Origin: an uncultured cyanobacterium
GTDB lineage: Bacteria; Cyanobacteriota; Cyanobacteriia; Thermostichales; Thermostichaceae
NCBI GenBank assembly: GCA_937944885.1
Contig: CALFBB010000011.1
Coordinates: 1-64,000, forward strand
Reading direction: 5' to 3'
DNA length: 64,000 nucleotides
Shown here: in pieces, positions 20,605 through 26,892 of the stretch
Numbering within the stretch: the stretch's first letter is position 1
Layout of the letters: each line of letters starts with the position of its first letter
The notes under the pieces: model-generated
Seen by the model: only the letters and a program-made list of their open reading frames with translations
Database searches by the model: none
What the model was told of the DNA's origin: nothing
Translations under genes and position numbers: made by a program

Positions 20605-21042
20605 ATGCAAGGAGCACTTAGCTTCTCTATGCCTGATCCTGTCCCTCCTGCTCACTCTCCCACTCCTTCCCATATTCCCACTTCCGGGATCCCGGAAACA
20701 GAATTGGATTGGCAAGAAGATTGGGAACTGGCTTTGCAGCAGCCTCCCCTATCCGGGCGAGCCCACCCTCATCACCATGATCCCGACTCACGCCGCAGGT
20801 TGGTCAATCGTCTGGCGCGAGTTGAGGGGCATGTCCGCGGGATCCGCTCCATGATCGAGCAGGGTCAACCCTGTCCGGATGTGCTGCTACAAATTGCGGC
20901 AGTCAAGGGGGCGCTGGATCGGGTGGCACGGCTGATTCTGGATGAGCACATCCGCCATTGCATCCGTCATGCCATGGAGACCGGCAATCTTGAAGTGGAG
21001 CTAGAGGAGCTCCAGCGAGCTTTGGATCGGTTTATCGGGTGA
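20605..21042 (+). CDS. CsoR/RcnR-family metal-sensing repressor
   Basis: A 145-residue protein whose C-terminal part is a DUF156 repressor: RLVNRLARVEGHVRGIRSMIEQG, then PCPDVLLQIAAVKGALDRVA and DEHIRHCI. The metal ligands are Cys90, His115 and Cys119, spaced +25 and +29 exactly as Cys36/His61/Cys65 of Cu(I)-sensing CsoR. The cyanobacterial nickel sensor InrS has His at the last position. The N-terminal 60 residues are low-complexity and end in a His cluster (HPHHH). The metal is probably copper, but nickel cannot be excluded. ATG 20629 is an alternative start. No metal exporter is adjacent. Confidence 0.85.
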   Translation: MQGALSFSMPDPVPPAHSPTPSHIPTSGIPETELDWQEDWELALQQPPLSGRAHPHHHDPDSRRRLVNRLARVEGHVRGIRSMIEQGQPCPDVLLQIAAVKGALDRVARLILDEHIRHCIRHAMETGNLEVELEELQRALDRFIG

Positions 21043-21469
21043 CTCCAGATTGAACGTAGCGCTCTAGCAAAGCCCTGCTTTTGAGCTGCCACTGCAACCC
21101 CATAAAGGCCCAATCCAGAAACTCGTTGATTTCTTCCTCGCTAAACTGCATCGCCTTGCCAATCTCCAAAATCAGCGCCTCCTCTTTTTCTGTAAACTCG
21201 TTATTCACCACGGCCATGGCTGCCAGATCCCGTAGAATCAAGGCTCCGGCCGAGTTATGCATGGGCGGGATGCTGCCGATATCTAGGCCCGCTGCTTCAT
21301 CCGTCAAATAGGTTTGAGTCAGTTGAGGATCTAGCCCCACTCCTTCCGCCACCTGGGTAAAAAAGTTGGTTTCTTCCTCATCCAATTGACCATCCACTCG
21401 GGCTACTGAGATCAAAGCTTTCAGGTAGAGCTGGCGCTGGGCATCGGTGAGATCAATGTAGTTGACCAT
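21032..21469 (-). CDS. TerB-like (tellurite resistance TerB family) domain protein
   Basis: The 145-residue, acidic, all-helical protein resembles the TerB/DjlA N-terminal domain family: LYLKALISVARVDGQLDEEE and EFTEKEEALILEIGKAM form the paired helix-acidic-loop repeats that may bind metal. It has no signal peptide or membrane segment. Its 3' end overlaps that of the csoR-like gene by 11 bases (convergent). A second TerB-like gene is at 60991. The function is unknown. Confidence 0.7.
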   Translation of the reverse strand: MVNYIDLTDAQRQLYLKALISVARVDGQLDEEETNFFTQVAEGVGLDPQLTQTYLTDEAAGLDIGSIPPMHNSAGALILRDLAAMAVVNNEFTEKEEALILEIGKAMQFSEEEINEFLDWAFMGLQWQLKSRALLERYVQSGVTR

Positions 21470-21543
21470 GGGGCTACCGGCTGAATGTGTGCTTCCCCTT
21501 TACTGTGCCACGAAGTTCGCCCACTCAGACAAGGGGAAACTTT

Positions 21544-21572
21544 TTTCAAACACTCAAAAAATCGCTTATAAT
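21544..21572 (+). promoter_or_regulatory. candidate sigma-70 promoter for the rpsP operon
   Basis: TTTCAA (21544-21549) and a perfect -10 TATAAT (21567-21572) are separated by 17 bases, upstream of rpsP at 21695. Transcription would start near 21579 and give a leader of about 115 bases. Confidence 0.55.
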
Positions 21573-21694
21573 AGAAAGCCTGTGTTTATTTGCCAGCAGT
21601 CAAAACCCTGGAGCTTTGGCAGGCTTGGCAAGACAAAACCGTTCCTCTCATTTTCTACAGCTTGTGAAGCACCCCCAAGGAGCAGATCACCACC

Positions 21695-22204
21695 ATGGTA
21701 AAATTGCGACTCAAGCGCTACGGAAAGAAGCGGCAACCGAGCTATCGCATCATCGCCATTGAAAGTAAAACTCGCCGTGAAGCCCGTCCGCTCGAGGAGT
21801 TGGGCTACTACAACCCCCGCACTAAGGAGACCGTTTTGGAAACGGCTAGCCTGCTGAAATGGTTGCGTTTTGGGGCTGAGCCTACCGAGACCGTGAAGGG
21901 GATCCTCACAAAGGCCGGCATTTACAATATGCTGGCAGCAGCAGAAGGTGGGGTTGTGGCTTCGATTCGCATCCCGGCTGTGGCCAAGCCCGCAGCTGGG
22001 ATCCCTGAGTCTGGTGAAGAGCCTGCCATTACTGTTGTCGAACCTGAGGCTGTGAATGTTGCTGCGGCCCCTGAAGCTACTGCTGAACCTGGGGCCGAGG
22101 TGGGTGGAGGTGAAAGGGAAACCCCCCAACCCTCAGAAGCAGCAGCTGGGACAGCAGTGGAAAATCCGGCGGAGCCTAAAGCTGAGGAAGCAGCTGAGGC
22201 CTAA
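21695..22204 (+). CDS. rpsP: 30S ribosomal protein S16 with long Ala/Glu/Pro-rich C-terminal tail
   Basis: The first ~85 residues are a standard S16: MVKLRLKRYGKKRQPSYRI, then SKTRREARPLEELGYYNP and ASLLKWLRFGAEPTETV. S16 binds 16S rRNA early in 30S assembly. The protein is 169 residues, roughly twice the usual length. The extra ~80 residues are low-complexity, rich in Ala, Glu, Pro and Gly, and predicted disordered. AGGAG lies 11 bases before the ATG. It heads a plus-strand cluster with khpA and get3d. Confidence 0.95.
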   Translation: MVKLRLKRYGKKRQPSYRIIAIESKTRREARPLEELGYYNPRTKETVLETASLLKWLRFGAEPTETVKGILTKAGIYNMLAAAEGGVVASIRIPAVAKPAAGIPESGEEPAITVVEPEAVNVAAAPEATAEPGAEVGGGERETPQPSEAAAGTAVENPAEPKAEEAAEA

Positions 22205-22256
22205 TGCCACATTCGGCTAAGCTTGCCATTAGACCTGGCCTTAATGGTTTTTCCCC

Positions 22257-22532
22257 ATGCCGGACTACAAAGCGCTTGCTCACCTTCTTATTGAACCTCT
22301 GATTAGCCCCGCTCCCTTACGGATGGACCTAGAGACCACCTGTGCCGGGAAAAAGGTGTGGCTACGGCTGGCTTTTGATCCCAAAGATCGGGGACGGGTA
22401 TTTGGGCGGGGTGGGCGAACCATGCAGGCCATTCGCCAGGTGATGATGGCAGCGGCTCAGTTGGCTGGGCAGTCTCTGCACATCGAAATCTATGGAGAGG
22501 CTGGAGAGCGAAGTCGGGAGGGGCGGGAATGA
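22257..22532 (+). CDS. khpA: KH-domain RNA-binding protein (KhpA/YlqC type)
   Basis: A 91-residue single KH domain protein. The GxxG nucleic-acid loop is GRGGR in DRGRVFGRGGRTMQAIR, preceded by LAFDPKD. KhpA proteins bind many RNAs and in several bacteria work with KhpB/Jag; the rpsP-khpA order is common in bacteria. The gene overlaps get3d by four bases (ATGA at 22529-22532), so translation is coupled. Confidence 0.88.
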   Translation: MPDYKALAHLLIEPLISPAPLRMDLETTCAGKKVWLRLAFDPKDRGRVFGRGGRTMQAIRQVMMAAAQLAGQSLHIEIYGEAGERSREGRE

Positions 22533-23650
22533 GCCAAATTCTCACGTTCTTGGGGAAAGGGGGGACAGGCCGCAGCACCTTGGCAGTAGCAGCAGCCCGC
22601 TTTGCTGCCCAACAAGGACGACGCGTACTGCTGGTGGGGCACCAGGCGGGGCCGGGGCTGGAAATGCTCTTGGGTGGGATCCCGCTGTCGGGGGAACCCT
22701 TGACGATTGCGGCCAATTTGAGTGTGGTGCAACTGCGGACAACCCAACTGCTGGAGCAAACCTGGACAGCAGCAAAAGAGTTGGAAGCCCAGTATGTGCG
22801 TACCCCTTTTTTCCGGGAGATCTACGGGCAGGAGTTGGGGGTGTTGCCGGGGATGGATCAAGCCCTTGCCCTGGAGGCTTTGCGTCGCTACGATGCCAGC
22901 GGCCAGTACGATTGCATTCTCTACGATGGGCCAGGGGATCTCACCACCCTACGAGCGTTTGGGATCCCGGAGGTGGCCAGTTGGTACTGGCGGCGAGCTT
23001 CCAAAGCCTTTTTCGGCTCGGATTTGGCCAAAACGCTGCGCCCTTTTGCGGAGCCCCTGCTGCGCTCTGTCAGCAATGTGGAGTTTTCCTCCCTGGAGGA
23101 TCTGCCGGATCGCATGGGAGGCATGACCAACATTCTGGAGCAGGGGCGACAGGCCATTGCCGATCCGCGACGGGTCTTGGCCCATCTGGTCACCACCCGC
23201 GATCCGATCGCCATTCAAACCGCCCGTTACCTGTGGGGCAGCGCCCAAATGGTGGGGGTGACGGTGGGGGGGGTGTGGGTAACCCCCATTGGCTCAGCAG
23301 AGGTAGCTGCTGCAGACTTCGCTCCTCTCCCTGTGCGGGTTTTGCCCAGCCATCAAGGTTTTGGGCGGGATAGCGGGATGGAGGGGTCTGATTTGGAGGC
23401 GGCGGTGGGTGGTGTGTTTACGGTGCCGGATGTGCCTCCCCCCTTGGCCATTGACGAGGGATCCCGTACGGTGAAGCTGTTTATTCCAGGCTTTAGTAAA
23501 ACCCAAATTGAGCTGAGCCAATCGGGGCCGGAGCTGACGATTACTGCTGGTGATCAACGGCGCAACTTATTTTTGCCGCCTAGCCTGGCCGGTCGGCAGG
23601 TGACTGGAGCCAAGTTTCAAGAACCCTTTCTGCTGATTAGCTTTGGTTAA
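22529..23650 (+). CDS. Get3d-like ArsA/Get3 ATPase with C-terminal alpha-crystallin domain
   Basis: A 373-residue deviant-Walker ATPase of the SIMIBI/ArsA class. The N-terminus is [18 protein letters not shown]; the signature lysine (GKGG) is present but the normal Walker A lysine is Arg. [10 protein letters not shown] matches the switch region. The last ~80 residues ([19 protein letters not shown]...[10 protein letters not shown]) look like an HSP20/alpha-crystallin fold. This layout matches Get3d, a Get3 homologue found in cyanobacteria and chloroplasts and thought to bind hydrophobic client segments. Its client is unknown. The start overlaps khpA. Confidence 0.85.
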
Positions 23651-23682
23651 GAGCCTCAATTAACCCACCGACGGAGAAGGCG

Positions 23683-24444
23683 ATGCTGGCCAAACGGATC
23701 ATTCCCTGTCTTGATGTGGCTGCTGGGCGGGTGGTGAAAGGGATCCAGTTTGTGCAGCTGCGGGATGCCGGGGATCCCGTGGAGCTGGCGCAAGCCTATG
23801 ACCGGGCTGGGGCCGATGAGCTGGTGTTTTTGGATATCACCGCCACCCATGAGGAGCGGGCCATTTTGCTGGAGGTGGTCCAACGGACGGCGGAGCAGGT
23901 GTTCATTCCCCTGACGGTAGGGGGTGGGATCCGCAATCTGGAGGGGGTACGAGCCCTGTTGCGGGCAGGGGCAGATAAAGTCAGCCTCAACTCTGCGGCG
24001 GTGAAGGATCCCGACTTGGTTACGCAGGCCAGCCGTTGGTTTGGATCCCAATGTATTGTGGTGGCTATTGACGCCCGTGCCAAAGCTGACGGGGAAGGGT
24101 GGGAAGTCTATGTGCGGGGCGGCAGAGAGCCCACAGGGTTGGATGCGATTAAATGGGCAAAACAGATGGCAGAGCGGGGGGCAGGGGAGATTTTACTCAC
24201 CAGTATGGATGCAGATGGCACCCAAGCCGGCTATGACCTGAACTTGACCCGTCAGGTGGTCGAGGCGGTGCCTGTGCCGGTTATTGCTTCCGGCGGAGCC
24301 GGTAATTGCACCCATATTCGCCAAGCCCTCCAAGAGGGAGGAGCAGAAGCGGCGCTTTTGGCCTCTTTATTGCACTATGGTCAATTGACGATCCCCCAAA
24401 TCAAGGCAGACTTGGCAGCCCATGGGCTGTTGGTGCGCACCTAA
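23683..24444 (+). CDS. hisF: imidazole glycerol phosphate synthase subunit HisF
   Basis: TIM-barrel cyclase of histidine biosynthesis, 253 residues. The N-terminus [12 protein letters not shown] carries the catalytic Asp, and [46 protein letters not shown] (second catalytic Asp) and [12 protein letters not shown] follow in family order. With HisH it converts PRFAR plus ammonia to imidazole glycerol phosphate and AICAR. It lies 32 bases after get3d; no other his genes are here, as is usual for dispersed cyanobacterial his genes. Confidence 0.97.
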
Positions 24445-24475
24445 CTCTGATTGCAGCAGCTAAGAGGCCTTACCC

Positions 24476-25312
24476 ATGTTCAACCCTCTGCAAAGCAGTG
24501 AGCTGGCTGAATGGTTACCTCAGGTGGCTCGTTTATCGGCAGCTGCGGGCGAAGCCGTCTTGGAGATCTACCGCAAGCCAGAGATTCAGGTTACTACCAA
24601 AGTTGATCCTGTTGGGCAGGATGGGGAGGAGCGTCTATCTCCTCTCACCGCTGCCGATCTGGCTGCTCACCACCTCATCTTGCAGGGCTTAAAAGATCTA
24701 ACCCCAGGGATCCCCGTGCTCTCAGAAGAAGCTGCCGACATCCCCTACGCTGAACGGCAACATTGGGGACAGTTTTGGCTGGTGGATCCCTTAGATGGCA
24801 CCCAAGAGTTCCTTCAGCGCAATGGTCAGTTCACGGTGAATATCGCCCTGGTGGAGGAAGGGATCCCGATTTTGGGCGTCGTTCATGCGCCGGTTTTGCA
24901 TCTCACCTACACGGCTGCCCGGGAGCTGGGGGCCTACCGAGGGGACACACGCATCCACACCTGCCCCTACACCGGTGGATCCTTGAAGGTGGTGGCCAGC
25001 CGCTCCCATGCCAACCCCAAAACCGAGCAATTCTTAAAGCAGTTGCAAAGCCGTTACGGCCCCCTTGAGGTGAGCTCCCTCGGTAGCTCCCTTAAGTTTT
25101 GCCGAGTTGCCGAGGGATCCGCCCATCTCTATCCCCGCTTTGGCCCCACCATGGAATGGGATACCGCTGCTGCCCAATGCGTTGTTGAGCAAGCCGGAGG
25201 AAGCGTGACCAACTTGCAAGGGGATCCCTTGCGCTACAACAAACCCGATCTGCACAACCCCCCCTTTATGGTGGCGGCTGCAGCTGGACTCTGGCAAGAG
25301 CTGCTGATCTAG
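24476..25312 (+). CDS. cysQ: 3'(2'),5'-bisphosphate nucleotidase CysQ family
   Basis: Inositol-monophosphatase-fold enzyme of 278 residues. Metal-binding motifs are VLSEEAAD, VDPLDGTQEFL (the DPLDGT signature) and the C-terminal MEWDTAAAQCVVEQAGG. The family hydrolyses 3'-phosphoadenosine 5'-phosphate (PAP) to AMP in sulfur assimilation; some members also act on inositol phosphates, so the substrate is inferred. The stop codon lies inside a 9-bp tandem duplication (GCTGATCTA, 25303-25320). Confidence 0.88.
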   Translation: MFNPLQSSELAEWLPQVARLSAAAGEAVLEIYRKPEIQVTTKVDPVGQDGEERLSPLTAADLAAHHLILQGLKDLTPGIPVLSEEAADIPYAERQHWGQFWLVDPLDGTQEFLQRNGQFTVNIALVEEGIPILGVVHAPVLHLTYTAARELGAYRGDTRIHTCPYTGGSLKVVASRSHANPKTEQFLKQLQSRYGPLEVSSLGSSLKFCRVAEGSAHLYPRFGPTMEWDTAAAQCVVEQAGGSVTNLQGDPLRYNKPDLHNPPFMVAAAAGLWQELLI

Positions 25313-25320
25313 CTGATCTA
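25303..25320. repeat. 9-bp tandem duplication across the cysQ stop
   Basis: GCTGATCTA occurs twice in succession. The stop codon TAG of cysQ is formed at the junction of the two copies, so the duplication may have created or moved the stop. Confidence 0.7.
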
Positions 25321-25341
25321 GGTGTCTAGGTGCTCCGCAAC

Positions 25342-25824
25342 CTACATGCCCATTTCGGCAGGGTTAAACCCATCTGGGAACTTGGTGTACTCATCATAGA
25401 GAGCACCACGAAAGTTGGCGTTGGTGATAATGGCTTCCCGTAGATCGGCCCCAATCCGCAGATCAGCCCGGCTGAGTTCGGCTTCAGTTAAGTCGGCTCG
25501 TAACAACCTAGCTCGGTAGAGGTTGGCTCCCCGCAGATCTGCCTTCACCAACTTGGCTCCGATCAGGTTCACCCGCCGCAACTTCGCCCCCCGCAGATCG
25601 GCAGCCGTTAGATCGGCCCCCGATAGATCCGACTCGCGCAAGTCTGCCCCGCTCAAGTTAGCCTCCCGGAGGATGATGCCCTTCAAATTAACCCCGCTCA
25701 GCTGCACTCCACTGAGATTGGATCCCGTGAAATCTCGCTGGCCAGAGGCATAAGCCTGCAACAGTTGTTTGGCATTCAAGAGAGGCTTAATACTCGCTGT
25801 TGTCATTGCTGTTTGTGGCCTCAC
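25342..25824 (-). CDS. pentapeptide repeat protein
   Basis: A 160-residue protein made mainly of A(D/N)LXX repeats, such as ANLSGADLRESDLSGADL and ADLRGANLYRARLLRADL. These fold as a right-handed quadrilateral beta-helix. About 20 tandem units lie between residues 30 and 145, with short caps. No signal peptide or membrane segment is seen. Cyanobacteria carry many such proteins, most without known function. It is convergent with cysQ. Confidence 0.9.
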   Translation of the reverse strand: MRPQTAMTTASIKPLLNAKQLLQAYASGQRDFTGSNLSGVQLSGVNLKGIILREANLSGADLRESDLSGADLTAADLRGAKLRRVNLIGAKLVKADLRGANLYRARLLRADLTEAELSRADLRIGADLREAIITNANFRGALYDEYTKFPDGFNPAEMGM

Positions 25825-26127
25825 ATAAGCGCAGGTAGACTATCGTGCGTGACGTCCCGGCAACTAACTGTAATCACCAGCAAAGGGCGGATTTCTCGGC
25901 TCTTTCCACCCAAAGTGAGGTGACGTCCAACCCCACTTCCCCCATTCTACCGATGTACTGAACCTGTACCAAACCTCTTCCCAACATTTTCCTGCAGGGG
26001 GGCAGAGGGAGCCTGGCGGGGAGGCTGACTCAGGACCCAACCTGGCTAAAGCTAGGCTGAAAGCCTCGGTAGCTGTCTAGCTGATTACCTTGTGCCCCCT
26101 CAAGCAGCTGCCGGAATTGCCCATGGC
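25825..26127. other. gene-free gap between pentapeptide gene and vipp1
   Basis: About 300 bases containing the pentapeptide gene's upstream region and the 3' flank of vipp1. No ORF, RNA gene or clear intrinsic terminator is recognised. Confidence 0.35.
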
Positions 26128-26892
26128 TCAGAGCTGGTCGAGCTCTTTGCGCAGATTTTCCAACTCCAGATCAACCTTATCGCCCTCAAACGATTGGGCC
26201 GCCGGCTGTTTCTTCTCCCCAGAGGGCAACTGGCCCTGTACGGCAGCTTTCAGCATCATGAGCTCGTGATCCACATCGGATCCACCTGCTTCTAGGGCAG
26301 CAAATTGGTTTTCGAGCCTGTCCACTGATAACTCTGCTACTGCTGCGGATTGGGCCTCGAGAGCGTTGACCTTTTCTTCCATGCGCTCAAAGGCAGCAAA
26401 GGCATTGGTGGTGTTCACCCGCCCGATCACCTCGTTGATTTGCTGGGAGGCTTTGGCCGAGCGAGCGCGGGCAATCAGCATATCCTTTTTGGTCTTGGCT
26501 TCGGAGATTTTGCTCTCCAGCTTGATCATGTTGGCTTTTAGCGTTTCCACCTGCTTAGTCTGCTCATCCAACTGCCGCTTCATGCTCTGGGCGGTTTCAC
26601 TGAAGGTTTTCTTCCGCACCAGGGCCTCACGAGCTAGGGCTTCATTGTTGTTGCGCAGGGCTAGCTCGGCGCGGCTTTGCCATTCGTTAACACTTTGTAG
26701 CGCCTGCTCATACTGCCGTTCCATCCGCTTTTGGCTGGCAATGGCCTGAGCTACCGCTTGCCGCATCTGGTAGTGATCCTCGGACATATCTTGGATGGTT
26801 TGGTTCAAGATTTTTTCCGGATCCTCAGCGCTACTAACCAGCGCGTTAATGTTGGATCTGATAATGCGGCTGACCCGATCGAACAATCCCAT
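26128..26892 (-). CDS. vipp1: Vipp1/IM30 membrane-remodelling protein
   Basis: A 254-residue PspA/IM30-family protein: MGLFDRVSRIIRSNINALVS is the amphipathic lipid-binding helix alpha-0, and the long coiled-coil hairpin (ILNQTIQDMSEDHYQMRQAV onward) follows. The C-terminal extension ending VDLELENLRKELDQL separates Vipp1 from PspA. Vipp1 forms ESCRT-III-like rings and rods that maintain and build thylakoid membranes. It stands alone on the minus strand with a ~300-base upstream gap. Confidence 0.95.
   Translation of the reverse strand: MGLFDRVSRIIRSNINALVSSAEDPEKILNQTIQDMSEDHYQMRQAVAQAIASQKRMERQYEQALQSVNEWQSRAELALRNNNEALAREALVRKKTFSETAQSMKRQLDEQTKQVETLKANMIKLESKISEAKTKKDMLIARARSAKASQQINEVIGRVNTTNAFAAFERMEEKVNALEAQSAAVAELSVDRLENQFAALEAGGSDVDHELMMLKAAVQGQLPSGEKKQPAAQSFEGDKVDLELENLRKELDQL

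Follow-up and report, generated by a model that had tools for sequence, protein, structure and literature searches.

Why does a cyanobacterial gene for a Get3-fold protein, with an arginine in place of the catalytic lysine of its P-loop, directly follow the genes for ribosomal protein S16 and an RNA-binding protein, and what might such a protein do? The question is raised by a locus in a window of 64,000 nt (the whole stretch of DNA that was analysed) from an uncultured cyanobacterium. The features of this locus are as follows.

21695..22204, + strand: rpsP, ribosomal protein S16 with a long C-terminal extension (PF00886, 62.2 bits; TIGR00002, 95.3 bits)
22257..22532, + strand: khpA, KH-domain RNA-binding protein (PF13083, 45.5 bits, cut-off 32.1; NCBIfam below cut-off)
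22529..23650, + strand: get3d, NosAFP family (NCBIfam NF050088 Get3_fold_NosAFP, 497.4 bits, cut-off 325, residues 1-372)
22553..22579, + strand: P-loop GKGGTGRST, residues 9-17 (sequence; alignment of 129 orthologues)
22643..22645, + strand: Gln39, where switch I of Get3 has Asp (alignment)
23462..23644, + strand: alpha-crystallin (ArsA_HSP20) domain, residues 312-372 (PF17886, 59.8 bits, cut-off 22.5)
23683..24444, + strand: hisF (PF00977, 289 bits)

The get3d ORF (22529-23650, +) starts with ATG and encodes a NosAFP-type Get3/ArsA-fold protein of 373 aa. The NosAFP profile matches over the full length and above its curated cut-off, and Pfam places an ArsA_ATPase match at residues 3-247. The best PDB match is All4481 (NosGet3d, 3igf/8egk, E 5e-109), followed by AtGet3d (8elf, E 1e-40). 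An earlier note on this DNA had proposed a Get3d-like protein with an alpha-crystallin domain at its end, and both points are borne out by the NF050088 score, the PDB match and PF17886. Judged by its sequence, the window gene is an orthologue of NosGet3d. No CXXC (the Zn-binding motif) occurs in its translation, and its TIGR00345 score of 57.8 bits lies below the cut-off of 135. Relative to locus L007, the protein has a 6-aa insertion at about residues 278-283. A structure prediction made from three sequences only reached a pLDDT of 46 and a pTM of 0.27.

In the P-loop, the signature Lys10 is kept and the Walker A position is occupied by Arg15 (codon CGC, 22571-22573), at least two base changes away from any Lys codon. 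Because of this Arg15, the protein does not have the canonical Walker A GKGGhGK[ST] with both lysines, and with Gln39 it also lacks the switch I catalytic Asp of canonical Get3/TRC40. The loop can be read directly in the ORF as the earlier note had described it. A lone mutation or a sequencing error at R15, the latter being what the note had named as grounds for doubt, is excluded: Arg is present in every aligned orthologue of the window's genus and family, and the same GKGGTGRST occurs in L009, L010/L007 (90% identity) and L008 (70%). The Arg P-loop is real, conserved and already published (PMC10248533): according to the text of Barlow et al. (2023), Arg occurs at Walker A in NosGet3d and certain cyanobacterial Get3d proteins and is distinct from most cyanobacterial homologues.

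An orthologue search over 386 genomes of the phylum gave matches in 138. Orthologues were found in 127 of these (128 loci, one genome with two); in G051 and G374 the match was weaker and resembled the paralogue, and the nine others are weak matches outside the class. Together with the named locus L008, the set comprised 129 loci, all of which were aligned. This P-loop alignment, which the earlier note had called for, returned Arg at position 15 in 100 of 129 orthologues, followed by Lys (10), Cys (9), Gln (7) and Pro, Ser and His (1 each). Only Arg is found in 51 of 71 genera. Among the NosGet3d-type orthologues sampled, most have Arg, which departs from the statement in the text of PMC10248533. 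Position 10 is Lys in 112 loci and another residue in 17. The loop is canonical with Lys in 10 loci, changed to Arg alone in 55 and changed to another residue at 15 alone in 9; Arg is combined with loss of the loop glycines in 32, all of family f7, the signature Lys is lost in 11, both basic residues are lost in 6 and another 6 deviate otherwise. Deviation beyond Arg is found in 64 of the 129 loops, and K10, R15 and Ser/Thr16 are still present together in 87. Within f7, Arg15 is kept in 41 of 42 loci, even where the glycines or K10 change, K10 being lost in nine. In two f18 rows the loop can no longer be recognised and has a gap of one residue, so the 'Arg' in column 15 of these rows reflects only how the alignment was placed.

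The switch I position, counted in a shifted column for 41 rows with a gap there, is Asp in 68, Glu in 36 and another residue in 25. Glu is therefore not unique to NosGet3d as stated in the text of PMC10248533. All 21 paralogues sampled, the best listed in the genome search with the window's genome included (more exist), have GKGGVGKTS, an STDPAHS switch I and a canonical switch II. Across cyanobacteria, the ATP-binding site of Get3d is wearing away. For the ancestral state of position 15, the parsimony costs of Arg (13), Lys (14) and a lost residue (14) are practically tied; 25 losses are required by parsimony if Lys was never regained. The Get3d tree was built quickly and its branches are long, and long-branch attraction may explain why the P-loop-less rows L126-L128 and L132-L135 fall together. 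Its longest end branch (1.77) belongs to L129 (G036), from family f10, which is sister on the ChlG tree to the get3d-less family f20. Row L126 (G382:C1:7577726-7578826) is an extra NosAFP-type copy that has diverged and whose P-loop is eroded (GKADTRHTT); it lies away from petP and chlG, and its genome also holds a petP-linked copy.

The P-loop-less lineages are under purifying selection. Pairwise NG86 dN/dS values, which are rough since several dS values exceed 1, are 0.06-0.27 in these groups overall (0.06-0.13 for the P-loop-less f19 rows, 0.13 for f18 and 0.11-0.27 for f6), about 0.05 in the window's genus (family f1), 0.06-0.07 in the Lys-bearing f26 and 0.016-0.038 among the paralogues. 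Mean identity in the P-loop is 0.46 in deviating rows versus 0.83 in Lys and Arg-only rows, whereas it is 0.68 versus 0.62 in segment 60-127 and 0.76 versus 0.69 in the alpha-crystallin domain, relatives being unequally sampled between the two sets. The alpha-crystallin domain has the highest conservation among the long Get3d segments compared. These values support a Get3d function that would be retained without need for a canonical nucleotide site. Arg15 persists in f7 despite the K10 losses, which speaks against simple decay, so this residue may itself matter, perhaps for an anion; a phosphate is described in the nucleotide site of AtGet3d (PMC10248533).

Alternatively, Get3d may be a working slow ATPase in which Arg15 substitutes for Lys and which drives TA (tail-anchored) protein targeting by nucleotide as in Get3, the P-loop-less lineages being exceptions with a changed role. 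The prevalence of Arg15 and of the signature Lys agrees with this, as does the ATPase activity reported in PMC10248533, with a kcat of 0.28 per min for NosGet3d and 1.10 for AtGet3d. Because the Arg-bearing NosGet3d hydrolyses ATP, Arg alone does not abolish activity. The joint retention of K10, R15 and Ser/Thr16 in most orthologues, and of Arg15 in f7, likewise argues that the site retains a role, perhaps anion binding. However, position 15 is neither Lys nor Arg in 19 of the 129 orthologues and K10 is gone in 17, yet purifying selection persists in such lineages; the switch I acid is missing in the window protein and likewise in 25 of 129, whereas the sampled paralogues keep every motif. A slow, nucleotide-driven ATPase is possible, but we would not expect it. 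Given Arg15, Gln39 and the P-loop-less sister lineages, fast ATP turnover does not appear to be what selection maintains.

Partners of Get3d were looked for in the gene order. Across the phylum the common order is hisF (divergent) followed by petP-get3d-chlG. An upstream petP on the same strand is found at 114 of 129 loci (65 genera, 26 families), within 500 nt at 110 of them. A downstream chlG is found at 79 loci (50 genera, 19 families), within 500 nt at 75, which is a lower bound as about 30 loci hold only some 1500 bases per side. All three genes are together at 78 loci (49 genera, 18 families), and hisF is upstream and divergent at 11 (9 families). The identity of petP and chlG was tested on one locus, L012 (petP: PF11061, 103.7 bits, and NF050003 PetP, 112; chlG: TIGR02056, 580.9), and extended by profile search. 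When the flanking ORFs were clustered, the clusters present in at least 10 families were petP, chlG and hisF; the remaining ones look, by eye, like antisense or shifted frames of petP, chlG, hisF and get3d. In gene order, petP and chlG are conserved partners of get3d. Because get3d of most other cyanobacteria is flanked by petP, which encodes a cytochrome b6f subunit, and by chlG, which encodes chlorophyll synthase, it may have a role in building photosynthetic membranes.

No report of the petP-get3d-chlG locus, and no paper on NosAFP/slr1794 beyond PMC10248533, was found in the open-access library that was searched. In the main text of PMC10248533 the terms chlG, synteny, gene neighborhood and genomic context are absent, and 'operon' occurs once, in a reference title.

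Not all cyanobacteria of the sample have the gene, which departs from the text of PMC10248533. A get3d orthologue is absent in 59 of the 186 genomes of the class: G051, G374 and all 57 sampled genomes of f20, in which no get3d match was found at 1e-10. A petP match was obtained in 184 of 386 genomes; get3d accompanies it in 127 of these, and the other 57 all belong to f20 (counted by eye). Twenty of the 57 f20 loci, chosen over genera, were fetched (L202-L221), and in all 20 petP and chlG are adjacent, with gaps of 17-118 nt, hisF divergent upstream and no get3d. On a quick ChlG tree rooted on f1, f20 forms one clade (100), nested with f10 (99) and then with f9 and f28 (99), all three bearing get3d. 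As f20 is nested among get3d bearers, loss of the gene there is likelier than that it was never present. PetP is found in 57/57 f20 genomes and ChlG in 20/20 examined; since both are present without get3d, neither needs Get3d in f20. G051 and G374 are a separate case: they have no get3d orthologue and no petP or chlG match and keep full-length PsaA/PsaB; either photosystem I occurs there with no chlorophyll synthase that can be recognised, or part of the assembly is missing.

The petP-get3d-chlG order could also be the inertia of an ancestral locus, without functional meaning. Such inertia would fit with hisF, which encodes a histidine enzyme, being a neighbour as well (at the 11 loci above and at 20/20 in f20), with petP and chlG staying together where get3d is missing, and with the intergenic gaps, which are often 100-250 nt. 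Against it, petP and chlG share a strand and both serve photosynthesis, and among get3d bearers they recur in 26 and 19 families versus 9 for hisF. We regard inertia as a tentative explanation at most.

In the window's genome the three genes are apart, with petP on contig C16, chlG on C28 and get3d on C11. In the eight genomes of its family (f1), chlG lies elsewhere in 8/8 and petP elsewhere in 7/8; no petP match was found in G389. hisF is the sole get3d neighbour common to the window's locus and the phylum-wide one, where it is upstream and divergent. The four-base khpA/get3d overlap described in the earlier note is confirmed, as the TGA of khpA lies within the ATGA at the get3d start (22529), with rpsP upstream on the same strand. 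The rpsP-khpA-get3d order is found in 6/6 genomes of the window's genus, with an ATGA overlap or direct abutment in all six, and also, with a gap of about 175 nt by profile bounds, in G386 of another genus of the same family. It is absent in G387 of the same family. Conservation of this order, which the note had proposed to examine and whose absence it had named as refuting its view, holds within the family (7/8 genomes) but not beyond it: profile searches found khpA or rpsP beside get3d at 0/125 orthologue loci outside the family, and both genes next to get3d at 3/129 surveyed loci, all of the window's genus. The 129-locus census rules out rpsP-khpA as conserved partners of get3d outside the family, and the place of get3d beside them in the window is probably a relocation, a derived state. 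That the overlap marks a real functional link of Get3d to the ribosome or RNA-binding proteins, as the note had suggested, is very improbable: the tight spacing throughout the genus and the gapped order in G386 speak for it, but the order is missing at all 125 outside loci and in G387.

Two points are not in the earlier note, namely the loss of the switch I acid (Gln39) and the confinement of the rpsP-khpA order to the family. Within the genus, the order over 20605-26892 is kept in L198, L199 and L201: csoR-like, terB-like (-), rpsP, khpA, get3d, hisF, then inositol-monophosphatase-like, pentapeptide (-) and PspA/Vipp1-like (-), these last three being named by a look at the sequence only. The S16 protein of the window has 169 aa, of which the S16 model ends near residue 76, and its extension is Ala/Glu/Pro-rich. 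A scan of 21300-25400 gave four promoter-like sites versus 1.7 expected, two of them being one overlapping site upstream of rpsP, and five terminator-like sites versus 4.4 expected.

Taken together, these data suggest that the window protein is a NosGet3d-orthologous, homodimeric holdase that serves short thylakoid transmembrane proteins near ChlG/YidC and cytochrome b6f, with a relaxed ATP site, a reading to which we give about an even chance. In its hydrophobic chamber the Get3d homodimer would shield short thylakoid proteins with a single span (tail-anchored or of a similar kind), keep them soluble and pass them on to YidC, the insertase, in the vicinity of chlorophyll synthase and b6f, at sites of chlorophyll delivery; its ATPase would perhaps be dispensable. 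Published data are compatible with such a site: ChlG binds YidC in a complex (PMC6175206), chloroplast GET3B binds ALB3 and ALB4 (PMC12040988), and PetP lies on b6f at its cytoplasmic side, above small single-span subunits (PMC9342900). That Get3d acts with ChlG, PetP or YidC, and which clients it has, we infer; gene order gives no more than a hint of shared function, and dispensable ATP hydrolysis is suggested by P-loop erosion only. A point against this holdase is that family f1, without linkage to petP and chlG, keeps get3d at a dN/dS of about 0.05. A bolder version, which we consider rather doubtful, is that cyanobacterial Get3d in general is on its way from an ATPase to a pseudo-ATPase, a holdase that is constitutively closed and independent of ATP, encoded between the genes for the b6f regulator PetP and for ChlG and feeding the ChlG-YidC site, with f20 dispensing with it. 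Its clients would be small b6f subunits, high-light-inducible proteins and small photosystem subunits.

Get3d is kept from cyanobacteria to land-plant chloroplasts, and the discussion of PMC10248533 states that its function and partners are still to be found. A petP-get3d-chlG locus in 18 families, together with a lineage missing exactly get3d from it, offers concrete candidate partners. If Get3d were such a pseudo-ATPase, its missing partners would be named, and lineages that lost their nucleotide site while purifying selection continued would demonstrate that a chaperone of the Get3 fold can do without ATP. The Walker A Arg is already published (PMC10248533); what is new here is the petP-get3d-chlG locus, a family whose version of it is short of get3d alone, and how far the P-loop has eroded.

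Among known systems, the window protein is closest to NosGet3d (All4481 of Nostoc sp. PCC 7120; 3igf, 8egk; NF050088), with which it shares the full-length match, the alpha-crystallin domain, Arg at the Walker A Lys, the kept signature Lys, an altered switch I and the lack of CXXC. It differs in its P-loop, where GKGGTGRST keeps the glycines compared with GKSGVARTK, in having Gln rather than Glu at switch I, and in its rpsP-khpA-get3d-hisF locus. According to the text of PMC10248533, NosGet3d is a closed dimer with a slow ATPase that captures a yeast TA protein, and both NosGet3d and AtGet3d bind TA proteins as closed homodimers with a hydrophobic chamber. The chloroplast AtGet3d (8elf) has the architecture of the window protein, but its aligned P-loop, GKGGSGKTT, still has the Walker A Lys. 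The Sll0086-type Get3d paralogue of the window's own genome (C43:30488-31657, L156), its type being assigned by published description only, also combines ArsA_ATPase with ArsA_HSP20; in contrast to the window protein it has GKGGVGKTS and an STDPAHS switch I, and at 190 bits it remains under the NosAFP cut-off of 325. With eukaryotic Get3/TRC40 the window protein shares the fold and the idea of TA clients, but it is without CXXC and the canonical Lys and scores below the TIGR00345 cut-off.
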